In this document: one piece after another, positions 17,593 through 29,735 of the stretch
Layout of the letters: every line of letters starts with the position of its first letter
How positions within the stretch are numbered: position 1 is the first letter of the stretch
Origin: Hyphomonadaceae bacterium
GTDB lineage: Bacteria; Pseudomonadota; Alphaproteobacteria; Caulobacterales; Hyphomonadaceae
Assembly (NCBI GenBank): GCA_024742355.1
Contig: JANSYM010000001.1
Location: 372,001-436,000 of the forward strand
Direction of reading: 5' to 3'
DNA length: 64,000 nucleotides
The notes under the pieces: model-generated
Seen by the model: the letters and a program-made list of their open reading frames with translations, nothing else
Databases searched by the model: none
Told to the model about the DNA's origin: nothing
Translations under genes and position numbers: made by a program

Positions 17593-17710
17593 CTTAAGGC
17601 TCCTCAGGCGCGTCAGCGATATTTGGTCTGGCGCAACTGTCCGCCTGCGCGCGCGCGAAGACAACCCCGTACGCGAGGGGAAGGGGCGTGGTGGCTATGC
17701 TTCGTTCTGT

Positions 17711-17793
17711 CCGCAGCCACCTGCGGAGGCAGGTGTCCGGGGAATGAAATCAGCCGCCGGGACGAGGGGCGTGTACCGTCCATGGATACCTGC
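17711..17793 (+). repeat. 83-bp dispersed repeat, copy A
   Basis: This segment matches 18014-18096 over 83 bp with only a handful of mismatches, all in the first half. The last 40 bp, through CCATGGATACCTGC, are identical. It contains a hairpin CACCTGC-GGAG-GCAGGTG near its start. Beyond 17793 the sequence departs and returns to GCGCAGGTAACGTCGG at about 17819. This unit serves as the reference for the uninterrupted copy of the casposon target. Confidence 0.85.
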
Positions 17794-17865
17794 CCCCCAG
17801 TCCAGCTGGGCGCAGCGCTGCGCAGGTAACGTCGGATAATAGGTGTATTGCTCTCTCACCGCTCT

Positions 17866-17936
17866 GCCAGCGCAAGCTGGCATCCATGGCGGCTAGCTGA
17901 TGCCTCGACCGCCATGGGTCCTGACTTGCGTCAGGA
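17866..17936. repeat. palindromes with GCAA/TTGC tetraloops
   Basis: GCCAGC-GCAA-GCTGGC (17866-17881) and TCCTGAC-TTGC-GTCAGGA (17919-17936) are perfect hairpins with the same 4-base loop, GCAA on one strand and TTGC on the other. The loop recurs in ACACCTGC-GCAA-GCAGGTGT (18020-18039) and in the casposon target. GCAA is a GNRA-type loop in RNA. The set looks like a family of REP-like elements. Confidence 0.6.
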
Positions 17937-18013
17937 GGGCGGTGAAGACAACCGCGTGGTAGAAGGGAAGAGTGGTAATCATTCATTGGTTGGACGGCTC
18001 TTCATCAATATCT

Positions 18014-18096
18014 CCGCAGACACCTGCGCAAGCAGGTGTCCAGGGACGGAAATCAGCCGCCGGGACGAGGGGCGTGTACCGTCCATGGATACCTGC
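18014..18096 (+). repeat. 83-bp dispersed repeat, copy B (interrupted by the casposon)
   Basis: This is the second copy of the 17711-17793 unit. It ends within the left target-site copy. The continuation expected from copy A (GCGCAGGTA-x-CGTCGG) is found on the other side of the casposon at 29706-29720 as GCGCAGGTATCGTCGG, so the mobile element split this repeat. Confidence 0.85.
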
Positions 18097-18105
18097 TTGC
18101 GCAGG
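18092..18105 (+). repeat. casposon target-site duplication, left copy
   Basis: CCTGCTTGCGCAGG is identical to 29699-29712 and the identity stops exactly at both ends. Its 14-bp length equals the 14-15 bp duplications known for casposase integration. The target is itself nearly palindromic with a TTGC centre. Confidence 0.85.
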
Positions 18106-18117
18106 GGGGTATAGCTA
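18106..18117 (+). repeat. casposon terminal inverted repeat, left
   Basis: GGGGTATAGCTA is the exact reverse complement of 29687-29698. Positions 13-27 still match at about half of the sites (for example the AATT at 18129-18132), giving an imperfect repeat of about 27 bp. This is short for a casposon but well defined by the adjacent duplication. Confidence 0.85.
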
Positions 18118-18132
18118 AATCCGAAAACAATT

Positions 18133-18158
18133 AAGTCCGCAGCGAATTGTGCGGACTT
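18133..18158. repeat. perfect hairpin next to left casposon end
   Basis: AAGTCCGCA (18133-18141) and TGCGGACTT (18150-18158) form a 9-bp stem with an 8-base loop. It lies 15 bp inside the terminal repeat. It may insulate the element from outside transcription or act in end recognition; no U-tract follows. Confidence 0.55.
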
Positions 18159-18279
18159 CTACTTCTCAATAAAACGCCACTACCGACGCGGCCGGTAACC
18201 TTGAGCTTGGCGATTTCAGATGCCAAACAAGTGCTCTGAGTGGCAATACTTGGAACAAACAAGCAGTTGAGGCGAGCAA

Positions 18280-19098
18280 ATGTCCGCAACCACGGATCCA
18301 TATGAAATGCGATATGTCGGGTTTGTCGACATCCTAGGTTTCGGCGCACTCGTTGAGGCAGCGCACGCACAACCGGAGCGACGAAAGGCTATAGCAGAAG
18401 CGCTGAAGACTGCGCGAGAAGTAGATGCCCCGCATAATGGCGAAACCGGTCTCAGCTTCCACTTCTTTTCGGATTCGATTATCGCCAGCGCACATCGAAC
18501 TGAAGATGGGTTATGGCATTTGTTGTTGGCGCTCGACAGTTTAGCCCACAATCTTCTAGTCAAGGACATATGGGTAAGGGGCGGAGTCGCAGTCGGCGGA
18601 GTTTACGTTGATCCAGATCTCGTCTTCGGAACCGGAATAAACAGAGCCTATGCGCTGGAATCAACGATTGCCGTTCACCCGAGAATCATTCTGGGCAAAC
18701 AGGTTATGAAGGACGCAGAAGAATATGCTAGAACTTCCGCCTGGTCAGAAAACTACTTTGTCTCTCGAATACGTCGCGACACTGACGGAGTAAATTATCT
18801 TCATTATTTGGTCGACTACGTAGCAGTCAATGGAACGACCATTTCGGAAGCAACAAAAGGAGCCGAAGAGCATCCTTTGGTGCATCAAGGGAATGCCATT
18901 CGAGCAGCTCTTCAGAAACGAATCGATGACGCAATTGAAAACCCCGCGATTTACGCAAAAGCGAAATGGTTTGCGCAGTATTGGAATGACGCTGTAGTCA
19001 ATCGCAATATCGAGGCGGACCTATTCTTGAAAAGCATCGCTTTGGCGGGCTCAAGCAATACCACCTCGCCGTTGCCTTTTCGGGGAACACCAGGTTGA
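18280..19098 (+). CDS. nucleotide-cyclase-like protein, casposon cargo
   Basis: The 272-residue protein opens with YVGFVDILGFGALV, then HFFSDSIIAS, then WVRGGVAVGGVYVDPDLVFGTGINRAYALES and HPRIILG. This is the arrangement of class III nucleotide cyclase-like domains: an aspartate in F-x-D-x-x-G-F (Asp17), a second aspartate in F-S-D-S (Asp65), and an R-G-G-x-x-x-G segment with later N-x-A. By motif it could be a catalytic cyclase or a degenerate relative. Pycsar-type defence cyclases are one family with this fold. A 422-residue nuclease-like gene follows 110 bp downstream on the same strand. The start ATG has only a weak upstream GAGGCGAG. Codon use is AT-richer than in chromosomal neighbours. 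Confidence 0.5.
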   Translation: MSATTDPYEMRYVGFVDILGFGALVEAAHAQPERRKAIAEALKTAREVDAPHNGETGLSFHFFSDSIIASAHRTEDGLWHLLLALDSLAHNLLVKDIWVRGGVAVGGVYVDPDLVFGTGINRAYALESTIAVHPRIILGKQVMKDAEEYARTSAWSENYFVSRIRRDTDGVNYLHYLVDYVAVNGTTISEATKGAEEHPLVHQGNAIRAALQKRIDDAIENPAIYAKAKWFAQYWNDAVVNRNIEADLFLKSIALAGSSNTTSPLPFRGTPG

Positions 19099-19109
19099 TT
19101 GATCCCGAT

Positions 19110-19214
19110 ATGAGCGCGAACTACGAAATATTGAAATATCAGGCTCTCATCATGAGTGAGGGACCCGCGGGTTTCAGGTCAATTCAAGGGAAGGAAATTG
19201 GGGACACATGGTAG
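19110..19214 (+). CDS. possible 34-residue protein between the cargo genes
   Basis: The ATG at 19110 opens a 34-codon frame (starting MSANYEILKYQALIMSEG) whose stop overlaps the start of the nuclease gene by 7 bp. Start-stop overlap with the next gene favours translation, but no Shine-Dalgarno precedes it and the sequence is not recognised. It may be only a spacer. Confidence 0.2.
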   Translation: MSANYEILKYQALIMSEGPAGFRSIQGKEIGDTW

Positions 19215-20476
19215 GCTTTTCTGGCCCTGAAGATTATCTGTTTCACAAAGGAGATTGGTTTGCGACGCGGGATAAATGGAAAAAGGACCTTATCGCGTCC
19301 GTTGAGAATATGGATGGTGATGAGCTATTAAATACTTCCACATCTGATTTGGCGGCTCATTTCGCTGACAAATACAAATTGGACGTGCCGTCCATACACC
19401 CAGACGATTTAGTCGTAGACCAACGTGAGGTGCAGATAGATGTAAGCCGCGATAGGGATCGGTATTTTGATGATATTCGAGGTCCGCGGTACGTGACTGG
19501 GACAGCTGTGGATGTGGACCTTCCGTTCACTGGCGACAAAGTTGGTTTCCAAATTCAACCCTCCACGCAAAACTTCAACAATCCGCGGGCTTTCGTGGGC
19601 GAAGGTATTTTGAAGTTTTCGGTCTCAGGAACCAGCATGACGCCCGAAAGGGTAAAACAAGAAATCGAGACGCGGATTAGCTCGATCAACCAGCACCTCG
19701 GTTGGTTGAATAAGGACGCTAGCGCCTACAACGATAGTCTCGAAGCGCTCGCTACTCAAACCATCGACCGGCGTAAGGAGAAACTGCTAAGAGACAAATC
19801 GCTTGTCGCGGGCCTCGGTTTCAAAATGAAACCGCGTACAACCGAAACTCAAACATTTGCGGCCCCTTCGGTTCGTAGAACATTAAAGCCTACTCGGCCC
19901 AAACCAACCGCTTCGAGCACGCCCTTTGTTCCCGAACCCATTTTAACGCAGACAGACTACGAGCACATATTAAAAGTTCTCGAAAACATGGTTCAAGTAA
20001 TGGAACAAAGTCCAGGAGCGTTCCGAGAGATAGATGAAGAGAGTCTGAGAACACACTTCCTTGTCCAATTGAATGGTCACTTTAGCGGAGATGCAACGGG
20101 AGAGACATTCAATTATGAAGGCAAAACTGATATTCTGATTAAAGTGGATGGCAAAAACATTTTCATCGGAGAGTGTAAATTTTGGACAGGACCGAAAGGA
20201 TTTCTCGATACAATCGATCAAGTCCTATCCTATTTGAGCTGGCGGGATACAAAAGCAGCAGTACTAATTTTCAGTCGAAACAAAGAGTTTTCTGCTGTGT
20301 TGGAAAAAATTGAAGCTAGCACTCCAACCCATCCGCACTTCAAAAAAATGATCAATGCACGCTCAGAATCTAGCTGGACGTACTTGTTTGGGCATAAGGA
20401 CGATGCGAACCGAGAAATCACGATAACGGTTCAAGCCTACAACGTTCCTGAACGTATTAAGCCGCGTGGTCGATAA
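19208..20476 (+). CDS. PD-(D/E)XK nuclease-domain protein, casposon cargo
   Basis: The 422-residue product has an N-terminal half without recognised motifs (about 1-190), a Pro/Thr-rich linker (about 215-245) and a C-terminal restriction-endonuclease-like domain. The active-site pattern is visible as Asp308 in GKTDILI and Glu322-x-Lys324 in IGECKFW, followed by a helix with DQVLSYLSW and a strand AAVLIFSRN. A GGGGAC motif precedes the ATG. With the upstream cyclase-like gene it resembles a two-gene signal/effector defence layout, where the nuclease would be the effector (inference). A stand-alone restriction or toxin nuclease is an alternative. It converges with cas1, 13 bp away. Confidence 0.65.
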   Translation: MVGFSGPEDYLFHKGDWFATRDKWKKDLIASVENMDGDELLNTSTSDLAAHFADKYKLDVPSIHPDDLVVDQREVQIDVSRDRDRYFDDIRGPRYVTGTAVDVDLPFTGDKVGFQIQPSTQNFNNPRAFVGEGILKFSVSGTSMTPERVKQEIETRISSINQHLGWLNKDASAYNDSLEALATQTIDRRKEKLLRDKSLVAGLGFKMKPRTTETQTFAAPSVRRTLKPTRPKPTASSTPFVPEPILTQTDYEHILKVLENMVQVMEQSPGAFREIDEESLRTHFLVQLNGHFSGDATGETFNYEGKTDILIKVDGKNIFIGECKFWTGPKGFLDTIDQVLSYLSWRDTKAAVLIFSRNKEFSAVLEKIEASTPTHPHFKKMINARSESSWTYLFGHKDDANREITITVQAYNVPERIKPRGR

Positions 20477-20489
20477 CCCGTGAATTTGG

Positions 20490-21572
20490 TCATCCCACTA
20501 ACAACCGCCTCGCTAACTCCGGATTGACGCGGACCACCCCATCCGACTGCAGATCAAAATCCGCCCCTGAAAACGTCTCTTCAGAGACCAACTTTAAGGT
20601 CACACGATCTACCACCGGCCGCATAGGTTCCATCATATCAATCGCGAAGCCAGGACGCGGCGGCCCGTACAGCGACCTGGACCTTTTGTGGACCACTCCC
20701 AGCATCGGATCATAGCCGTCCGTGATCACCTGGATTTGCGTTTGCCCCAGCAATACCGTGTAGACGTAATTCAGCATTGCATTGACCGGATGGGTAGCGA
20801 AGATATTGCCCCCGCCTTTGCTCTGCGAATTAAGCGATCCGCGCGAATAGAACGTTCGCCATTCGTCCGGGATTGGATGCCGCTTCGTCACTTTCCATTT
20901 TATTTTTAGCGTGCGCCATGTCTGGAAATAGACGCTTGCGGCTTGGGCTTCCATTCCAAGCAATGATTTAAGTGTGATTGGTTCAGTCTTTATTCGCTCG
21001 ACATAATCCGAGATTTTGGTGATTGCACTTTCTCGAAACGTTGACGGCTCAAAAAAGTCTTCCAACGTAACAATTGAGTTTTCAAACTTTTGCTGGATGA
21101 GCGGTTTGAAGAATTTGGTGCGCTCGTGGTCGTCATCGCGAGCGCGGATTTGCCAAGCTAATTTTTTGGGGTCCGCGGCTTGCCCACCCGACGTAAGCAA
21201 AGAATTGAATTCGCCGTTGTAACGAACGCGAATGAGCGGGACTTTTTGCTCCGCAAGCCAATCCAGCGCATCCAAGGTTATGGACCCTTTTCCGTCCACA
21301 ACCACAATTCGCGGTGGAATATCCAAAGAACCTTTGAAATACTCGAATTGGCTGGCTTTTTGCGGATAATGCGTAAAACCGTCTTTGATAATTAGGCGAC
21401 CTTTATCGACATTGATTGAAAGCCCATTTCCAGTTAATACCAATCCGGTTTTAGACTTCTCTCGCCTTTTTCGTTTTGGAATATGTTTTTGTAATTTTGA
21501 GTGCCAATAAGCGCACCGAATTGGCCATTCTTTGTCTTTATCAGGAACAATTTCAGCGGTTTGATAATTCAA
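20490..21572 (-). CDS. cas1: Cas1-family integrase (casposase)
   Basis: The 360-residue protein has a beta-strand N-terminal part (GLSINVDKGRLIIKDG, IVVVDGKGSITLDALDWLAEQKVPLIRV) and an alpha-helical catalytic part. The metal-binding triad of Cas1 is present: Glu208 in LLGMEAQAASVYF, His295 in DGYDPMLGVVH, and Asp312 in AIDMMEPMRPVVD. Cas1 endonuclease/integrases join mobile DNA ends to a target with staggered cuts; in casposons they act as the transposase. No cas2 or CRISPR array is nearby, and polB and HNH genes are adjacent, so casposase is the correct reading. The gene is divergent from the replication operon across a 52-bp AT-rich promoter region with an inverted repeat. Confidence 0.93.
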   Translation of the reverse strand: MNYQTAEIVPDKDKEWPIRCAYWHSKLQKHIPKRKRREKSKTGLVLTGNGLSINVDKGRLIIKDGFTHYPQKASQFEYFKGSLDIPPRIVVVDGKGSITLDALDWLAEQKVPLIRVRYNGEFNSLLTSGGQAADPKKLAWQIRARDDDHERTKFFKPLIQQKFENSIVTLEDFFEPSTFRESAITKISDYVERIKTEPITLKSLLGMEAQAASVYFQTWRTLKIKWKVTKRHPIPDEWRTFYSRGSLNSQSKGGGNIFATHPVNAMLNYVYTVLLGQTQIQVITDGYDPMLGVVHKRSRSLYGPPRPGFAIDMMEPMRPVVDRVTLKLVSEETFSGADFDLQSDGVVRVNPELARRLLVG

Positions 21573-21594
21573 AACCTTTTATCCTTATTTCACA

Positions 21595-21615
21595 ATAAAC
21601 TCGTTCTTTGTTTAT
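21595..21615. promoter_or_regulatory. inverted repeat in the cas1/operon divergent promoter
   Basis: ATAAAC (21595-21600) and GTTTAT (21610-21615) are perfect inverted arms separated by 9 bp. They sit centrally in the 52-bp intergenic space that must hold promoters for both cas1 and the divergent operon. This is a plausible operator for the element's HTH protein (inference). Neither divergent gene has a clear Shine-Dalgarno, so leaderless transcripts are possible. Confidence 0.45.
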
Positions 21616-21624
21616 AGCGAATAA

Positions 21625-22347
21625 ATGGCCCAAAACACTGTAAAAATTCCAGAAAATGCCGAACCGCTAAGCCACGCGTGGATTAGTTATATGGCGTATT
21701 TTCGCGAAGACCCAAAACGTTACCGCGACGAATTCTACAGTAGGCGGCGGCCAAAATTGGACGAATCCCCCGAAGAAACGGATTTGAGAATTAGGCGCTC
21801 GGAAGTAAAAGAAAAAGATTGGCGAAACGATCTTTTGTCAGAAATCAGAGACGGCAAATTTGTGGTACTTGGTCGGGACATAACCGATCGCATCGACGCG
21901 CCATTAACCGATATTCCAATTAGTATTTTTGAAGAGCTCAATTCAAATGTCTCGATTGATTGGGATAACAACCACGTAATTGCTTACGGCAGAAAGATCA
22001 TTGACGTTCTTATTGCACCCAAACCGGTCGAGAGCGATGCAAGTTTAGTCTCTACTAATGAGCAAGCCGTCGCACCCGAACGAGTGTTTCCCGAGAAACC
22101 TGGTGCTACTTCGTATGAAGCCGAGCGGCGGCGAGCAATTTTGACGTGCTATGAGCGAAAGCCCGAATTTCTTAAATGGAAAGTCGAAAAACGAATTGAA
22201 TACGCAAAAAGCGTTGCCGATGAACTATTTCCGGGTCTGGGATTTAATGACAAACAAGGCGATCATTTCTCCAGATCAACTTTCTATAACACAATAAAAT
22301 CGCTAAAAGATTCTGGGCTCTTGCCGTCCAAAAATGTCCAAAAATAA
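21625..22347 (+). CDS. unknown casposon protein, first gene of the replication operon
   Basis: The 240-residue product is soluble, charged and without a recognised domain. The N-terminal 75 residues are rich in Arg/Asp/Glu (HAWISYMAYFREDPKRYRDEFYSRRRPKLDE). A central stretch with FEELNSNVSIDWDNN is followed by a flexible Pro/Glu linker and a helical C-terminus (SRSTFYNTIKSLKDSGLLPS) that could be a winged-helix-like DNA-binding end. It begins 52 bp from cas1 on the other strand. Position suggests a regulator or an accessory factor for excision or replication, but the sequence alone does not show it. Confidence 0.7.
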   Translation: MAQNTVKIPENAEPLSHAWISYMAYFREDPKRYRDEFYSRRRPKLDESPEETDLRIRRSEVKEKDWRNDLLSEIRDGKFVVLGRDITDRIDAPLTDIPISIFEELNSNVSIDWDNNHVIAYGRKIIDVLIAPKPVESDASLVSTNEQAVAPERVFPEKPGATSYEAERRRAILTCYERKPEFLKWKVEKRIEYAKSVADELFPGLGFNDKQGDHFSRSTFYNTIKSLKDSGLLPSKNVQK

Positions 22348-22432
22348 GCGCTGCATTTTGTATATTTCTGGAGTCTATTAAAGGATTCCGCGGCGGCCAA
22401 TTGTTGATCCGAAGTAACCAATCGGATCGAAC

Positions 22433-23011
22433 ATGGCTCGCACTCGCGACTACAAAGCAGAATACCGACGCCGCCTTGAACGCGGCAAAGCCTTAGGTCT
22501 GTCCAAGGCTCAGGCGCGCGGCCATCCGCGAAAGGGTGAGCCATTAGCAAGCTCACCGGAAGCCAAACCCAAAGTTGATGACAAGATCACAGAAGCCTTG
22601 AAGGCCATGCACGCGGGCAGCTCAATGACCGCTGCCGCGCGCGATGTGCAAATGTCGTCACGCCGACTGAGCAGATTTATCAAAGCCCATAAAGTCGCCC
22701 GTTTAAAAGGTCGCCGCTGGATCATGACGGACCGGCTATTGCGGCGTGTCCCGATCATCGAAAACACCGCGATCAAATCGATCATCGTTCCAACGTTTGA
22801 AGATGCCAGCCTGGTTGGCCAATACCACAATGCGGTGGGGCAATTCGTTCGGACCGGCGATCTAGCCGTTTTGACGGCGTTCGAAGGCCAAGCCGTGAAC
22901 GATCACAATGGCAAATCCCATCCTCTGGAAACCGACCCAAACGCGCTCTTTCGCTACGCCGCGAAGGACGAACCGCAGTTCTTCGAAATCTATCAAGTCA
23001 TTGCAAAGTGA
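22433..23011 (+). CDS. helix-turn-helix protein of the casposon
   Basis: The 192-residue product starts with a very basic segment (MARTRDYKAEYRRRLERGKALG). A predicted helix-turn-helix follows at about residues 55-85 (ALKAMHAGSSMTAAARDVQMSSRRLSRFIKAH), then RRWIMTD. The Psq/homeodomain-like pattern with A-A-R and S-x-R-L-x-R is typical of transposon-encoded DNA-binding proteins. The C-terminal 90 residues are unrecognised. HTH proteins recur in casposons; this one may bind the ends or the divergent promoter. It lies 85 bp after the previous gene and 12 bp before the HNH gene. Confidence 0.7.
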   Translation: MARTRDYKAEYRRRLERGKALGLSKAQARGHPRKGEPLASSPEAKPKVDDKITEALKAMHAGSSMTAAARDVQMSSRRLSRFIKAHKVARLKGRRWIMTDRLLRRVPIIENTAIKSIIVPTFEDASLVGQYHNAVGQFVRTGDLAVLTAFEGQAVNDHNGKSHPLETDPNALFRYAAKDEPQFFEIYQVIAK

Positions 23012-23023
23012 AAGGAGACACAG

Positions 23024-23401
23024 ATGGATGATATTATCAGCGACGCGGAAATCCGCAGGCAAAAGGATTTTCGGCGACTTCGAACAACGACGCCAATATG
23101 CCTGTCTTGCGGATACTCGAAAAGTTCGAGCGCGCTTGAGCTTGCGCATATTGCGCCAAAGCGGTTCCACGATGATGGCGGCGTGCTTTGCTCAAATTGT
23201 CACCGCGAAATGAGCGATGCAGAAAAAGACCTGTCCTATTCGCCGCAATCGGCCAACCCGCAAATGGAGACGATCGGGCGATACCTTCTCGCGCTTTCAG
23301 AATGGCTAACTCGCATTGCCGAAACCATTGCCGCTTTTGGAACTTGGCTTCTGGGGTTTGCGGAAAGCTCTCCAGCCATTGAACCGGAGCCGTTGTCATG
23401 A
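23024..23401 (+). CDS. HNH endonuclease of the casposon
   Basis: AAAGGAGACACAG gives a strong ribosome-binding site for ATG 23024. The 125-residue protein has an HNH fold with a zinc knuckle: Cys26-x-x-Cys29, then LELAHIAP with His42, then a glycine pair and VLCSNCHREMS with Cys56, Cys59 and His60. The C-terminal third is a hydrophobic or amphipathic helix (residues about 85-113) followed by an acidic tail, unusual for a small HNH enzyme. HNH nucleases are a regular casposon component and may help in excision or resolution. Its stop overlaps the polB start (ATGA), so the two are translationally coupled. Confidence 0.85.
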   Translation: MDDIISDAEIRRQKDFRRLRTTTPICLSCGYSKSSSALELAHIAPKRFHDDGGVLCSNCHREMSDAEKDLSYSPQSANPQMETIGRYLLALSEWLTRIAETIAAFGTWLLGFAESSPAIEPEPLS

Positions 23402-26112
23402 AACTGCGTGCGCACGTTCGAGCCTATACCGAAAAGCCGGGTCATGACCCGCTAGGATCCAAATGGAAGCAGCCCAAGGCAAGACCCGACCCGCACCATC
23501 AACTGATCTTTGATGGTGAAACAACCACCGACCCGGCACAGGCGTTACGCTTTGGAGCCTTCCAGGTTCGCAAGAACGGAAAGTTGCTGACCGCGGGCGT
23601 CTTCTGCTGTCCGCTCACGCTGTCCAAGCAAGAAGTTCTTCTGCTCAAGCAATATGCCGAGAAGTATGGGCTTTGGTTCGGGGACATCAAACGGTTCAGA
23701 AAAGAAGTTTTCCTGCGCGTGGGCTATCAAGCAGGCGCGAGCATAATCGGCCTCAACTTGCCGTTTGATCTTGCTCGGATCGTTCGGGGGTCCTCTGAGG
23801 CCCGCTATGATATGCGTGGCGGTTTCTCGCATTCAATCAGTCCGGACCCGCTCGTACCCAATGTCCGCACCAAGCATTTGAGCGCGAGTGCCGCTTTGAT
23901 TGATTTTGCCTATCCTGATGGACAGCCAGATGGACGGGGCATGCGAAACCGAGGTTTCAAATCAGACCCGCATCGCGGTGTATTCGTTGACATCAGAACA
24001 TTGGCTGCCGCGCTCTTGAGCCGGAAACACTCGCTGGCAAGCCTGTGCGAAGCATTAGGCGTAGCAACTAAGAAACAAGAAACCCATGAACATGGCGGAC
24101 CACTAACCGAGCAATATATCGAGTATGCCCTCACAGATGTTCAGGCCACCTGGGAATGCTACGACGCACTGAACAAAAAGTATCAGGCGTTCAAGCTTGC
24201 AACGCCGGTCCAGAAAATCTTGAGTGAAGCGAGCTTGGGCAAAGCAACGCTTTCCGAGGTGGGCATAAAGCCGCTTCTGTTTTGTCAGCCTGATTTTCCG
24301 CGAGAACAATTCGGCGTCGCCATGGCCCCTTACTTTGGTGGCCGCGCAGAAGTGCGAGAACGCAAGCACGTCGTCGAAGTCATCCCGACTGATTTTAAGT
24401 CGATGTATCCGACTGTGAACGCCCTCATGGGTTTATGGCGCTTCATGATCGCGGATGGATATAGCCAGGAAGATAGTACCGAGGAAACACAGGCGTTTCT
24501 GGACCGCGTTTCGGTCAACGATCTCCAGAAAGGGGACACTTGGAAACACCTATGTACGCTTGTTCAACTAAAACCGGATGGCGACGTGTTGCCATTGCGA
24601 GCGGCCTATTCAAAGCCGTTCGACAAAACCAAGAATAATCTCACGATCGGCCTGAACCATGTCAGCTCCAGCGAGTCTATGTGGCACACGCTCGCCGACG
24701 TGATCGGCACGAAAGTGCTGACCGGCAAGACGCCTAAAATTGAAAAGGCTATTACCTACAAACCGGGACTTGTTCAACGCGGTCTCAGACCCATCAATTT
24801 GTTCGGCGACCCGAAATACCGCATAGACCCACGCAAAGACGATTTATTTCTTACCCTTATCAATTTGCGGGATGGAGTGCCAAAATCCGATCCTGCAAAT
24901 CTTGCCTTAAAAATCCTCGCAAATTCGACGTGCTACGGCATCCTGGTCGAGGTCCAGCGCGATAACGCGCCAAAGCCGGAGTCGATCGTGGTTATTGGTC
25001 CGGACGGGCAAGCCTTCGAAACCAAGTCAGTGGCCTTGGAAGAACCAGGCAAATACTTTCACCCATTGCTCGCCAGCCTGATTACCGGAGCTGCACGCTT
25101 AATGCTCGCGATCACCGAGCGGCTGGCAACCGATCGCGGACTTAGTTGGGCATTCTGCGACACAGACAGTCTAGCGCTCGCAAGACCGACGGGAATGGAC
25201 CGCGACGAGTTCAGAGTGCGCGCCCGTGAAATTGTTGATTGGTTCGTAGAGCTGAACCCATACGAAAAACCGGGTTCCATCCTCAAGATTGAAGATGCGA
25301 ACTTCGACCCGAAAACGAAGGAAATGGAACCGCTTTATTGCTACGCAATTTCAGCGAAGCGCTACGCATTGTTCAACCTGAACGAAACTGGCGACGCGCT
25401 CATTCGCAAAGCGTCAGCGCATGGCCTGGGACATTTGATGGCACCTTATGACGGACCGCTTCCGCAACCGGAGTTTGGAAATATCGGCGTGAATCTTTGG
25501 CAGCATGATGTCTGGCTGCAAATTATCAAAGCCGCGCTCGCTGGGCATCCAAACCAAGTCGCGTATGACTATCACCCCGCATTGGAACAGCCTGCATTGC
25601 AACGCTACGGCGCGACCAGTCCAGCCCAGCTACGGTGGGTGCGTCTGCTTAATGCAGACACGCCTTACCGCCTGTCCGTGAAGCCTTACGGTTTTATGGT
25701 AGCTCCAATCGAACGCACCGGCCCGTTTGCGGAGCAAAACACTGACAGAGTGGTCACCCAAGTCCGGCCTGGGCGTCCAAAGAAGCCGGGGAAGCATAAG
25801 CCTATCGCTCCGTTCGAGCGTGATCCAAGCGTCATCGCAGAAACCGTGATCGACCGGGAAACCGGAGAACGCATTCCTGTTGAGTGCTTGAAGACCTATC
25901 GGGAAGCGCTCGCGCTCTACCACCTGAGCACAGAAGACAAATTCGAGAATGGCGGACCTTACGACGTCGGGATAACTCGGAGACGCCGTGTGCAGGTTTC
26001 TGGGGTCACGCTGATCGGGAAGGAAGCCAATAAGGTCGGTGAGGCTGGGGAAATTGATCCGGTTCGTGGAGAAGTGGCGATCTTTAAGAAACGAAAGAAC
26101 GGAGGCCGATGA
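23398..26112 (+). CDS. polB: family B DNA polymerase (casposon PolB) with 3'-5' exonuclease
   Basis: The 904-residue protein contains all core motifs in order. Exo I has Asp39 and Glu41 in FDGETTT; Exo II has Asn120 and Asp124 in GLNLPFDL; Exo III has Tyr243 and Asp247 in YALTD. Polymerase motif A has Asp332 in TDFKSMYPT, motif B is LKILANSTCYG (Lys505 to Gly514), and motif C is CDTDS with Asp588 and Asp590. It should therefore be active for both synthesis and proofreading. A basic C-terminal extension (last 120 residues) is not part of the core. It is expected to copy the excised element, the self-synthesising feature of casposons. The gene overlaps the HNH stop by 4 bp and ends next to a tiny ORF. 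Confidence 0.93.
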   Translation: MKLRAHVRAYTEKPGHDPLGSKWKQPKARPDPHHQLIFDGETTTDPAQALRFGAFQVRKNGKLLTAGVFCCPLTLSKQEVLLLKQYAEKYGLWFGDIKRFRKEVFLRVGYQAGASIIGLNLPFDLARIVRGSSEARYDMRGGFSHSISPDPLVPNVRTKHLSASAALIDFAYPDGQPDGRGMRNRGFKSDPHRGVFVDIRTLAAALLSRKHSLASLCEALGVATKKQETHEHGGPLTEQYIEYALTDVQATWECYDALNKKYQAFKLATPVQKILSEASLGKATLSEVGIKPLLFCQPDFPREQFGVAMAPYFGGRAEVRERKHVVEVIPTDFKSMYPTVNALMGLWRFMIADGYSQEDSTEETQAFLDRVSVNDLQKGDTWKHLCTLVQLKPDGDVLPLRAAYSKPFDKTKNNLTIGLNHVSSSESMWHTLADVIGTKVLTGKTPKIEKAITYKPGLVQRGLRPINLFGDPKYRIDPRKDDLFLTLINLRDGVPKSDPANLALKILANSTCYGILVEVQRDNAPKPESIVVIGPDGQAFETKSVALEEPGKYFHPLLASLITGAARLMLAITERLATDRGLSWAFCDTDSLALARPTGMDRDEFRVRAREIVDWFVELNPYEKPGSILKIEDANFDPKTKEMEPLYCYAISAKRYALFNLNETGDALIRKASAHGLGHLMAPYDGPLPQPEFGNIGVNLWQHDVWLQIIKAALAGHPNQVAYDYHPALEQPALQRYGATSPAQLRWVRLLNADTPYRLSVKPYGFMVAPIERTGPFAEQNTDRVVTQVRPGRPKKPGKHKPIAPFERDPSVIAETVIDRETGERIPVECLKTYREALALYHLSTEDKFENGGPYDVGITRRRRVQVSGVTLIGKEANKVGEAGEIDPVRGEVAIFKKRKNGGR

Positions 26113-26192
26113 TGGGCAGGGATTATTTGCTCCTGCAAGCCGCTGGCAGAGAGCGGACCAACTTGAGGCGGCTCTCAACCCGATATCAGTAA
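26109..26192 (+). CDS. possible 27-residue protein coupled to polB
   Basis: The ATG at 26109 overlaps the polB stop codon in an ATGA junction, with GGAGG 4 bp upstream. It opens a 27-codon frame starting MMGRDYLLLQAAGRERTN and ending TAA at 26192. The ribosome-binding site and overlap match those of the real operon members, but the length is short and nothing is recognised. It could be a small regulatory peptide or the remnant of a longer gene. Confidence 0.35.
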   Translation: MMGRDYLLLQAAGRERTNLRRLSTRYQ

Positions 26193-26307
26193 TTGTCGAA
26201 AGCGTTGCTTGTCGCTCAACAAGGCGCGAACGAAGCTGTGCTGAAGCGTACAAACAAACTTATTGCAGTATCGACTTTATGAATTATTCAAGAGGTGGAA
26301 AAGCCAA

Positions 26308-26332
26308 TATCTATTTATTGCCGTTATAGATA
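26308..26332. promoter_or_regulatory. inverted repeat upstream of the right-arm cargo
   Basis: TATCTAT (26308-26314) and ATAGATA (26326-26332) are perfect arms separated by 11 bp, 34 bp ahead of the cargo gene start. The AT-rich stretch includes a -10-like TATAGA. It is probably the promoter/operator of the right-arm operon. Confidence 0.45.
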
Positions 26333-26365
26333 CCGTTCAGGCATTAAATGTTGGGAGGGGAAAAA

Positions 26366-26830
26366 TTGTCAAACGAGAGCTTGATAGATGTTCCAGGGCT
26401 ACATTCCGCGAAGATTTTCGCAAGCAGCTCAAGTAAAGAAACGGCCCATGAAATTGCTGCTCTATTAGCTCGCCGCGGTTGGTCAACCGATACTGTAATT
26501 ACATCGTCTCACACGTCACAGTTGTCGAAAAATAAATATCCAGAGCGCGATGTAAGTGCAAATATTGCTCTAATGGATGAGAAGCTATACAATGAAAGCC
26601 GAGTTCTTTTCAATCAAATAGGCGTTTTTTGTGAGAATAATTTCCAAAATATATTTATTATTTCTTTGGATAAAGAATGGCAGAAAGCGAAGAACGACAA
26701 TACAAAAAAGATTTTCTCAAGATCTTTCGTATCGAGCTATAACCCTGAAATAATAGACGGTCTTGCTGCTCGTATCGAGAAGAAAGCGATGCACAGCTCA
26801 AGGGCGTTCTCCGCTTCGGTGTTCGCCTAA
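26366..26830 (+). CDS. N-terminal fragment of an interrupted cargo gene
   Basis: A TTG at 26366 with GGGAGGGG at 5 bp is the best start; an ATG at 26348 lies inside that signal region. The 154-residue frame is AT-rich and contains SAKIFASSSSKETAHEIAALLARRGWS, a beta-alpha opening as in nucleotide-binding or Rossmann-like effector domains, then IFIISLDKEW. It stops at TAA 26828-26830. The same frame continues without a further stop to 29212, and the downstream part lacks a start with a ribosome-binding site. I therefore read this as the 5' part of one gene broken by a single nonsense codon. A separate effector gene is the alternative. Confidence 0.5.
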   Translation: MSNESLIDVPGLHSAKIFASSSSKETAHEIAALLARRGWSTDTVITSSHTSQLSKNKYPERDVSANIALMDEKLYNESRVLFNQIGVFCENNFQNIFIISLDKEWQKAKNDNTKKIFSRSFVSSYNPEIIDGLAARIEKKAMHSSRAFSASVFA

Positions 26831-26971
26831 CTTATTGCGTCCTTTGGTTCCGAGCACAGAGTATTATTAGAGTTTAATAGCGATGCTGAGGGGCGTTTTG
26901 AGTTACACACCTTCAAGGCACCTCTCCAGCGAGAGAACGACTACATTCTTGTAATTTACGACGATTCCAGT

Positions 26972-29212
26972 TTGGCCAAGTCGCAAGAAAAATTGAAAAG
27001 TGAAACCCCTGAAGCGCTAGGGAAAAGACTCACCATTGTTCGTTACTCCTCTGGATCCGTCTTAACGGCGATTGAGCGGAGAAATACCGAAGAATTGTTC
27101 CCAGGCGCGCAGTGTTTCGCCTTCGAAGAATTTCACGCCCAAGATCTTTCCGATCGCCCCACATTAAATCAAAAACAGTTTCGCGATAAAATATTTGTTG
27201 ATGCGGATTGCACAATAGCCATTCGACATGGTTCGAACACGACGATGAGCTCGAAAAAGTTGAGCTCGAAGGTGGAAATTGATTCAGTCATCGATCGGGT
27301 TCGCGCAGATGCGATTTCAAAAGTCACGCTGATTCAAGCACCGGGTGGAACAGGCAAAAGTCATCTCGCGCGATACGCAAATGACCGATTGGTGGAAAGA
27401 TCTTCTGAAGTTGTGTTTTTGGACGCGCAACTTGTCAGACAGTGTTTGACGAGTGATGGATATCAAAACCTAGCGATCCGCTCAATCTATGACATCTATC
27501 GATTGTGCGCAGACCACTCAAAACAGCTCTCGCCGTTAACAGAAGAGCGCTTCCGGCTACGATTCAAGCTCCGAGATACAGCGATCGTAGTCGACGGACT
27601 CGAAGAAATTTATGCGCTTCTGGGACCCAGTTTCGACGTCAATGCGCTACTAGATGATAGTTTAAACTATTTGGAAGATAATATTAATGGAATAATTATT
27701 TTCACTTCCAGAAAAGACTTTTGGAAAGAGTCTGAATTCGACAATTTTAGAGTAATTAATCTTTACCCATTCTCAATAAGTAATGCCAAAACTTATTTTC
27801 GAAAACTGTTTGACGGGGATTTAAATAAAATAAATAGCGCAATGACAATAATAAATACGATGGCAAACAATGATGGCTTTGTCTTGCCCCTATATTGCGA
27901 TTTAGTCGGTCAGCAGATGAAGAGCATGTCTAATATCGAAACTAATGCTCACGTTCAGGTTGCGCCCCAAGAACGATTTTCGAACTTACTAATTTGGGTT
28001 TTGGACCGCGAGATGGAGCGGACTGACTCAGTGGATTGGGAGCACGATGGGAGCTTTGAGTTTCTAGAACGCGTTGCGTACGAGTCGGTTGATAAACCAT
28101 TAGGTTTCCAGCAAGCGAAACAAATACTTCGAGAGGTGTTGGGTAGAGAGTTATCGGACAAAGACGTCGGAGCCATTGAAAATCATAAACTTCTAACCGT
28201 AGACGCTTCGGAAGGATTGGTCATACACCGGTACCCATTCCTTAAAACCGCGCTCATAGCGCGACATTTATCTGGGTTGCTCAAAGAAACTGGGCCAAAC
28301 GCTTGGACACCTTCTGCCGATTCATCAGATTCGCTATCAAGTTTAATAGGATCGAACCTACTGATTCCGGGGTCGGACCTGGCCGAAGCGCTGCTCCTAG
28401 AACTCAGTGATGCCAAAAATTCAGAGTTACGATCTCGCCTAAAACAAGCAATTCAATCTGCAGCGACCAATATCATCGACGAACCGCTTAGACCGGGTCC
28501 GCTCACCTTTGCTCGAAACTTGGTGAACAATCTCTTTAGCATAATGCTGCGGCTGTACAGCGAAGACCTTGGTAATCCATCCAATAACACACTGATTATG
28601 CGAGAGTGTTTTGACGTAGGTGGAGGTGAGTATACAGGTCTGACGATGGTAGGCTACGCTCAATCTGGCGAACTGACGATAGCGTTCGATTTTTCCGACC
28701 TTACTATTTCTGCGGGACTATTCGTCGATTATCCGGATTTTTGGAAATGTTCCGCAAATGAAAGCACGACCTTCCGCGAATGCATAATTCGTCGATGTGA
28801 TCGAAATGCATCTACCAATTCGTCACTTGTCCTCGCGAATTTTTCCAACAGCCAGCTCGATGACGAGTTCTCAGAACGGTTTAGTAGAAAGACTGAATCG
28901 AAGGAACGCAAACAGGCTCAAATCATCAAAGCGTTGAAAGCATTTTTTAAAGGCACCGCTCCAGGACAAAACTATGATGTTGGTCGGGAAGAACAGGAGT
29001 TTACGACCGAAATAACGATCCCGGGGCCTGTTCGCTTCAAATATCTGAAACAGAAGCTCTTAGACCATGGACTTTTAATAGAGTTTAGCCCCTCCGACGG
29101 CAGACCCGTTCGACTTAAGATTCCCGATCAGCATCACTCACAAGTCAAACAGTTCGTCACAAACAGCGTTCCATCTCTCGAAATCAAGCGGCTGATTGAT
29201 GAATTGGTTTGA
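26972..29212 (+). CDS. STAND/NACHT-like P-loop NTPase, casposon cargo (possibly truncated 5')
   Basis: The open frame continues from 26831 in phase with the preceding fragment; the first usable start codon is a TTG at 26972 without a ribosome-binding site. The protein has Walker A APGGTGKSH (about residues 125-133), a NACHT-like Walker B AIVVDGLEEI, a sensor-like IIIFTSRKDFW, then winged-helix-like and helical parts. It also has a short stretch resembling pentapeptide repeats (FDFSDLTISAGLF..FRECII). Many STAND NTPases are anti-phage sensors of the Avs/NACHT kind; that role is an inference from architecture and context. The AT-rich composition differs from the replication operon. It overlaps the next gene by 14 bp. 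Confidence 0.65.
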   Translation: MAKSQEKLKSETPEALGKRLTIVRYSSGSVLTAIERRNTEELFPGAQCFAFEEFHAQDLSDRPTLNQKQFRDKIFVDADCTIAIRHGSNTTMSSKKLSSKVEIDSVIDRVRADAISKVTLIQAPGGTGKSHLARYANDRLVERSSEVVFLDAQLVRQCLTSDGYQNLAIRSIYDIYRLCADHSKQLSPLTEERFRLRFKLRDTAIVVDGLEEIYALLGPSFDVNALLDDSLNYLEDNINGIIIFTSRKDFWKESEFDNFRVINLYPFSISNAKTYFRKLFDGDLNKINSAMTIINTMANNDGFVLPLYCDLVGQQMKSMSNIETNAHVQVAPQERFSNLLIWVLDREMERTDSVDWEHDGSFEFLERVAYESVDKPLGFQQAKQILREVLGRELSDKDVGAIENHKLLTVDASEGLVIHRYPFLKTALIARHLSGLLKETGPNAWTPSADSSDSLSSLIGSNLLIPGSDLAEALLLELSDAKNSELRSRLKQAIQSAATNIIDEPLRPGPLTFARNLVNNLFSIMLRLYSEDLGNPSNNTLIMRECFDVGGGEYTGLTMVGYAQSGELTIAFDFSDLTISAGLFVDYPDFWKCSANESTTFRECIIRRCDRNASTNSSLVLANFSNSQLDDEFSERFSRKTESKERKQAQIIKALKAFFKGTAPGQNYDVGREEQEFTTEITIPGPVRFKYLKQKLLDHGLLIEFSPSDGRPVRLKIPDQHHSQVKQFVTNSVPSLEIKRLIDELV

Positions 29213-29630
29213 TTTTGGATTAGCGTTTAGTTTCACCGAGGAAGCAGAAACCAGTGTGGGTAGAACATTCGACGTAATTGGAAGTTCCAGAATTTACTAT
29301 TACAAACAGTTACTGGGCGTGCAGTGGGGCGAAAAAATCTCCACACTTTCCGAGAAGATTTATAGTAATCTTCCATGCGTCGTCTGGATGAACGAAAGTT
29401 GGACCGTAAGCGCCGCAACGCGGTTTGAGAGAGATCAGATAATGAAGTCTCAAGAGCCGGTTTTGGTGCTGAAGTCATGGAACGGCAATCATGCCCTAGA
29501 AAATCGTCGCGGAACGGTAACGGTGAATAGACGCCAATTCGAGCCAGCAAAAGACGCACAGATTATTTTAGACTGGATGATGGACAAAAAAATTATTCTT
29601 GGGCGGTTGTCAGCTGGTCCTCAGCAGTAA
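29199..29630 (+). CDS. unknown cargo protein coupled to the NTPase
   Basis: The ATG at 29199 overlaps the end of the NTPase gene by 14 bp, so translation is coupled. The 143-residue product starts MNWFDFGLAFSFTEEAETS and has no signal peptide, membrane segment or recognised motif. It is rich in aromatic residues (YYYKQLL, WNGNH, WMMDKK). A partner or adaptor of the NTPase is likely from the gene arrangement. It is the last gene before the right end of the casposon. Confidence 0.65.
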   Translation: MNWFDFGLAFSFTEEAETSVGRTFDVIGSSRIYYYKQLLGVQWGEKISTLSEKIYSNLPCVVWMNESWTVSAATRFERDQIMKSQEPVLVLKSWNGNHALENRRGTVTVNRRQFEPAKDAQIILDWMMDKKIILGRLSAGPQQ

Positions 29631-29649
29631 AATTTTTTCTCCTTGTGAT

Positions 29650-29668
29650 CTTCAAACACGCCTTGAAG
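29650..29668. terminator. short hairpin near right casposon end
   Basis: CTTCAA (29650-29655) and TTGAAG (29663-29668) form a 6-bp stem with a 7-base loop, 20 bp after the last cargo stop codon. A T-rich run precedes rather than follows it on the plus strand, so terminator activity is doubtful. Confidence 0.25.
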
Positions 29669-29686
29669 AACAATTAATCTTAGAGA

Positions 29687-29698
29687 TAGCTATACCCC
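29687..29698 (-). repeat. casposon terminal inverted repeat, right
   Basis: TAGCTATACCCC is the perfect reverse complement of the left end at 18106-18117. It is immediately followed by the right copy of the 14-bp target duplication. Confidence 0.85.
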
Positions 29699-29712
29699 CC
29701 TGCTTGCGCAGG
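29699..29712 (+). repeat. casposon target-site duplication, right copy
   Basis: CCTGCTTGCGCAGG is identical to 18092-18105. The following TATCGTCGG is the continuation expected for the interrupted dispersed repeat (compare TAACGTCGG after copy A). Confidence 0.85.
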
Positions 29713-29735
29713 TATCGTCGGAAGAAGGGAAAGCC

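Follow-up and report, generated by a model that had tools for sequence, protein, structure and literature searches.

Casposons are regarded as the origin of the CRISPR adaptation enzyme, and the casposases of Aciduliprofundum boonei and Methanosarcina mazei that have been assayed use sites at the ends of tRNA genes. Casposases are described as Cas1 integrases that make duplications of about 14-15 bp (PMC6977970, PMC6614799), and the A. boonei casposase as recognising a palindromic repeat of the tRNA-Pro T-psi-C loop (PMC9939771), which is the nearest precedent for the sites reported here and had already hinted at a role of palindromes. Intergenic regions are given as the location of family 3 and 4 casposons in the available part of their description (PMC6614799), which is consistent with the hairpin sites found in this work. 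Among the casposon papers listed in our literature searches, titles and opening lines of abstracts contain no hairpin or terminator target rule, and an earlier notice of palindromic targets is possible.

We analysed a stretch of 64,000 nucleotides (the window) from a Hyphomonadaceae bacterium whose genome comprises 18 contigs and 3.46 Mb. Our main reading, to which we give a probability of about 0.72, is that the window contains a casposon of a proteobacterial Cas1 clade whose casposase targets short palindromes of varying sequence and duplicates their core. The features of the locus are as follows.

17995..18105, left part of a host repeat with two palindromes (remainder at 29699-29722), the second of which is the insertion target
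18092..18105, left copy of the target duplication, CCTGCTTGCGCAGG, a perfect 14-bp direct repeat
18106-29698, casposon body, 11,593 bp, between both duplication copies
18106..18117, plus strand, left terminal inverted repeat, GGGGTATAGCTA
18280..19098, plus strand, cargo, 272 aa, without a Pfam match; another casposon (L042/L068) has a weak homologue (26-27%)
19208..20476, plus strand, cargo, 422 aa, candidate defence protein PDC-S54 (E 1.7e-158)
20490..21572, minus strand, cas1 (casposase), 360 aa, from profile, alignment, tree and structure comparison
21625..22347, plus strand, 240-aa protein between cas1 and the HTH-type gene; no Pfam match, homologues in a few relatives
22433..23011, plus strand, conserved HTH-type protein, 192 aa, present in most relatives
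23024..23401, plus strand, HNH-like protein, 125 aa, with invariant C/H residues
23398..26112, plus strand, family B DNA polymerase (PolB), 904 aa, from Pfam and invariant motif columns
26348..26830, plus strand, cargo, 160 aa, no family matched convincingly
26972..29212, plus strand, cargo, 746 aa, P-loop NTPase, weakly NACHT-like (NACHT 0.0012, below cut-off)
29196..29630, plus strand, cargo, 144 aa, no match
29687..29698, minus strand, right terminal inverted repeat, TAGCTATACCCC
29699..29712, right copy of the target duplication, CCTGCTTGCGCAGG, a perfect 14-bp direct repeat

The gene set, the perfect ends, the duplication and the Cas1 tree all support what a previous, sequence-only reading of this DNA had proposed, namely that the block is an intact casposon. 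The inverted ends (12 of 12 positions identical, 20 of 27 when extended) and the 14-bp flanking repeat were both re-found where that reading had placed them, and the AT-richness it had noted was borne out by measurement, the G+C content being 0.43-0.56 in most of the block versus about 0.60 or more on either flank. The cas1 gene is on the minus strand and the genes for the 240-aa, HTH-type, HNH-like and PolB proteins are on the plus strand, with two cargo genes to their left and three to their right. The three Cas1 residues singled out beforehand (E208, H295 and D312) show no variation among 22 aligned sequences, that of the window being one of them. The same is true of the PolB motif set: columns D39/E41, N120/D124, Y243/D247, D332, K505, Y513-G514 and D588-T589-D590, which we take to be the Exo and Pol motifs, do not vary across 20 sequences, again including the window. 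The Pfam model DNA_pol_B_2 matches 7 of 20 PolB members, and the window PolB reaches 1.4e-5 for the exonuclease and only 0.069 for DNA_pol_B_2; a comparison with PDB sequences gave no match. The predicted HNH and HTH genes are conserved neighbours of cas1 among the relatives. The HNH-like protein of the window is under the Pfam cut-off, and its residues C26, C29, H42, C56, C59 and H60 are conserved without exception across 15 sequences, its own among them; HTH domains were detected in a few of the relatives' homologues of the 192-aa protein, and none in the window protein. Pfam indicates no other recombinase or transposase among the ten proteins of the window casposon. A search of its own genome for miniature copies returned full end matches at this casposon's two ends only, and matches with one mismatch numbered 3 versus 4 and 4 in the reversed control.

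HenMar-C1 of Henriciella marina, a bacterial (family 3) casposon, is alike in its Cas1 without extra domains, its PolB, HNH and HTH genes, its inverted ends and its duplication (PMC4046053). In the available part of the same account, however, HenMar-C1 also has a Ser/Thr kinase, a C5 methyltransferase and a Cas4-helicase fusion, for which Pfam gives no match in the window casposon, and published ends measure 25-602 nt, whereas those of the window casposon are 12 nt and perfect. The window block is an intact member of the casposons that is set apart from HenMar-C1 by published gene content, and identity with HenMar-C1 was ruled out on this ground.

The 14-bp duplication forms the central part of a hairpin with a perfect 9-bp stem, the pre-insertion site being rebuilt as GATACCTGC-TTGC-GCAGGTATC. 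This hairpin is the second palindrome within a repeat of about 110 bp that is dispersed in the host genome (window 17700-18105, paralogues L168-L177); with at most 2 mismatches, the palindrome is matched at 21 places in the genome, versus 1 for the reversed control. All 10 fetched paralogues cross the rebuilt junction unbroken, with small gaps only and about 73-82% identity, and one of them, the contig 5 copy, has 29 of the 30 rebuilt bases. The empty site reconstructed in the earlier reading is thus upheld by these copies, but the neighbouring repeat at 17711-17835, which had been taken as its model, is not the best one because its loop holds about 24 additional bases. The exact empty allele of the window site was searched for and not found.

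Relatives were gathered from the host's order and by a scan of named genomes. Their ends were located via the GGGG-TATAG motif or a scan for inverted ends and direct repeats, not via hairpins, and pre-insertion sites were rebuilt for the 23 casposons with both ends. Centred hairpins were scored with G-T pairs and one mismatch allowed, the centre lying at most 1.5 bp from that of the duplication. Scores of at least 12 were obtained for 22 of the 23 rebuilt sites (the sole miss being L087), versus 3.6% of 124,480 background and 3.3% of 5,440 intergenic-like positions, and scores of at least 16 for 20 of the 23, versus 0.56% and 1.2%, respectively; a perfect stem of at least 7 pairs is found at 17 of the 23, versus 0.27% of 82,383 positions. 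In 7 of 22 sites the hairpin centre is 0.5-2 bp away from the duplication centre, and the length of the duplication is uncertain by a few bases across the relatives because the G-run of the ends merges with the G/C arms. When six of the rebuilt targets were folded in single-stranded form, each formed the hairpin, with z-scores of -3.7 to -6.1.

Sites with one end point the same way. Among 18 such sites, chosen by eye for their inner end sequence, 15 have a one-ended score of at least 10, versus 6.6% of 25,500 controls, a proportion that becomes 15 of 23 when the omitted end-like motifs of L089, L093, L097, L104 and L105, all scoring below 10, are added. Without any selection, the strict end motifs (73 ends, at 46 of 68 loci) include 54 that score at least 10, a share to be set against the same 6.6% of controls, and 46 that score at least 12. 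The 19 that score below 10 comprise 6 apparently devoid of the inner end sequence (L070:13122, L072:17596, L074:13493, L082:12373 and L090 twice), 4 whose opposite end scores at least 13 (the left ends of L066, L068, L074 and L085), the right end of L087, the recA-type ends of L089 and L105, and those of L084, L093, L097, L100, L103 and L104. Duplicate extractions (L033-L046, L048, L050, L051, L053 and L054 versus L057-L099) were counted once, L096 standing for two ends. L082 and L098 are two-ended but of the recA type and were kept outside the 23, as was L085, whose left G-run is expanded so that the duplication is not computable, and which was placed among the 18; this G-run (L085:1540-1556) is 12 versus 5-9 in the other two-ended relatives. 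In many loci both ends were not located, e.g. L049, L052, L053/L091, L054/L099, L067, L078 and L086.

Several loci have unusual arrangements. A 1.9-kb derivative (L055:8572-10495) has kept both ends and, of the genes, only a broken cas1, and it is likewise inserted in a hairpin. Two right-type ends lie 66 bp apart at L096:2000-2150, each adjoining a separate terminator-like hairpin. At one locus (L043:16600-16640 and L203:90-130), two casposon ends stand back to back on one shared 16-bp hairpin, the second end being solo, as if a tandem insertion had been followed by loss; no partner of this neighbouring solo end was found within 20 kb.

Some target sites are intrinsic terminators that are intact in relatives without the casposon. 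The hairpins of L060, L064, L066, L071, L074 and L081 have the look of intrinsic terminators with a T-run, which is on one side in most clear cases, these being too few for a claim about orientation. At the Ruegeria site (L074), 1 of 53 other genomes aligns across both flanks, and a terminator of the L074 type was seen in 15 of 19 fetched loci, only one strand being read. At the L081 site, where the upstream gene is presumably greA, 21 of 39 other genomes of the genus align across both flanks, and the terminator was seen in 16 of 19 fetched loci.

The hairpin rule holds for the window's branch and for most other proteobacterial members, and not for the whole 48-row clade of the Cas1 tree. In the window's 24-row branch, 23 of 23 members with a known end adjoin a hairpin, the end of L067 not having been located. 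The tree, which does not include L100 and L103 (both with only a partial Cas1), puts Streptomyces L116 and Nitrosomonas L114 outside the clade and Nitrosomonas L090 and L093 inside it. Within the deep branch formed by L090, L093, L097 and L104, end-like motifs without a hairpin were observed at L093:13486, L097:10748 and L104:7248 (Nitrosomonas, Chloroflexi and Armatimonadetes records), and the end of L094, likewise deep, adjoins a hairpin. L100 has a casposon-like end without a hairpin, and the hairpins of L084, L087 and L103 are weak. Another set of casposons (L082, L089/L050, L098 and L105) has its ends immediately in front of recA and at, or close to, GAAC-N7-GAAC boxes, which we take to be the alphaproteobacterial LexA operator; the duplications of L082 and L098 at these sites are 14 bases long. 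The four recA-type ends score 0-4 by the one-ended measure, and the procedure therefore does not force hairpins. The sites upstream of recA are a second, sequence-type target, and target choice seems to have changed within the clade.

The main rival to a casposase that reads palindrome architecture is a symmetric casposase that prefers approximately CYCC...GGRG on ordinary duplex DNA, the palindrome being a by-product of this symmetric sequence preference. We asked of the 22 sites (all but L087) how far the two arms match each other. Among the first eight stem pairs, 170 of 176 are Watson-Crick and 5 of the other 6 are G-T, whereas 100,000 shuffles of the right arms among sites averaged 96 Watson-Crick pairs and never exceeded 128, the loop and centre having been picked per site, a choice that favours the true pairs. 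If only 8 sites whose left arms are unlike one another are kept, 62 of 64 pairs are Watson-Crick versus a shuffle mean of 33, the 62 being reached in 4 of 100,000 shuffles, about 2.5 of which are expected to restore the true pairing. When own and swapped halves were optimised alike, the own halves paired at a mean of 7.5 and the swapped ones at 4.3 (0 of 20,000 permutations as high). Swapped halves still outpair background positions (mean 2.2, from a slightly narrower search), which makes a common sequence, with pyrimidines on the left and purines on the right, one component of the target; at stem pairs 4-7 counted from the loop the pyrimidine is mostly on the left. Beyond this shared leaning, however, the arms are complementary to each other. 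This includes pairs 1-3, at which the type of pair differs, and the match persists after thinning to dissimilar sites; we thus regard a sequence preference on duplex DNA as an unlikely source of the palindromes.

Three other explanations have far less in their favour. It might be argued that there is no target preference, and that insertions are widespread but survive only in harmless intergenic hairpins. Most rebuilt sites are indeed shortly downstream of a stop codon (in a rough scan, that of a gene reading towards the site lies at most 71 nt away in 15 of 22), but the intergenic-like background yields only 3.3% and survival alone does not account for the register of the duplication with the hairpin centre, and we give hardly any credence to this argument. 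Nor do we give much to homing to dispersed host repeat families that happen to be palindromic: such a repeat is what was hit in the window, but terminators in conserved gene neighbourhoods were hit as well, and these exist also in relatives that lack the casposon. Finally, the window Cas1 matches Cas1 models built for CRISPR proteins, as would an adaptation protein stranded beside a mobile element. Tree, sequence and predicted fold nevertheless group it with the casposases and not inside the CRISPR adaptation proteins, as the sequence-only reading had anticipated, and the solved structure closest to it, by sequence and by fold, is a casposase; PolB, HNH and HTH-type neighbours are conserved together with this Cas1, which is the one Cas1 match of the window genome and is stand-alone. 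A CRISPR origin of the window cas1, the chance of which we put close to nil, was ruled out by the tree and the closest structures. A scan of viral contigs gave a single weak Cas1 match.

The accessory cargo of these casposons appears often to be of a predicted defence type, with many kinds among relatives. We listed 72 large cargo proteins, of which 60 were scanned together and 20, one per casposon, singly. PADLOC models were matched at 1e-8 or better by 10 of these 20 casposons (one large cargo gene each), and the other 10 match none. The models matched were short-Argonaute-associated and Avs2 (L061), PDC-M60A (L062), LmuB (L064), type IIG (L066 and L077), PD-Lambda-4 (L075), type II methyltransferase (L076), AriA-like (L080), PtuA (L085) and PDC-M36A (L087). 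Resolvase or recombinase matches were found for 3 of the 60 cargo proteins, on other casposons than that of the window.

Our preferred reading, a casposase that targets short palindromes, suggests the following mechanism. The casposase would attach the GGGG-TATAG ends to the two strands of a short palindrome, at points about 14 to 17 bp from each other, after which the palindrome core would be duplicated by gap filling; the end product is what we observe, and the chemistry is carried over from other casposases. The target would be chosen because it is an inverted repeat, as almost all rebuilt sites have matching arms although their sequences differ, and we infer that the casposase itself reads this architecture, either as an extruded hairpin or through the dyad symmetry of the double strand. 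The simplest picture has a symmetric enzyme acting on a symmetric target; the extruded hairpin is the bolder one. Landing sites would be intrinsic terminators and dispersed intergenic palindromes, which would explain spread with little gene damage. PolB presumably copies the casposon, the HNH and HTH-type proteins may assist replication and integration, and the accessory genes, often of defence type, would be carried along.

More tentatively, and with somewhat more doubt than belief, we propose that this lineage reads inverted-repeat architecture rather than a fixed sequence, that each insertion consequently has the palindrome-insert-palindrome layout of a CRISPR unit, and that it offers a present-day model of the path from a transposase target to the palindromic CRISPR repeat. 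One might speculate that an array would result if the duplicated hairpin received another insertion, a case with which the back-to-back ends on one hairpin may be compared. The question of why CRISPR repeats are palindromic would thus become testable, the duplicated target being itself a palindrome of varying sequence. Many casposons of this lineage are shown here to carry defence-like genes, but the new point is the target, that is, hairpin sites and their bearing on the possible beginnings of palindromic CRISPR repeats.

Insertion sequences that target repetitive extragenic palindromes are alike in that dispersed palindromes receive insertions (PMC1525189); no Cas1 is apparent in the available part of that account, and the casposons described here also enter single-copy terminators. 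Group IIC introns share the use of a stem-loop, e.g. a terminator or attC, as target cue, but they are retroelements whose insertion point is beside or within the stem-loop and whose chemistry is different, as described with no Cas1 (PMC7923331). For casposons of the HenMar-C1 type, a palindromic target rule is absent from the available part of the description (PMC4046053). The A. boonei and M. mazei casposases are alike in being Cas1 integrases with 14-15 bp duplications (PMC6614799, PMC6977970). Their palindrome, however, is described as a single tRNA feature beside the duplicated segment (PMC9939771), whereas in the window lineage the duplicated segment is itself the hairpin, with a sequence that varies by site.
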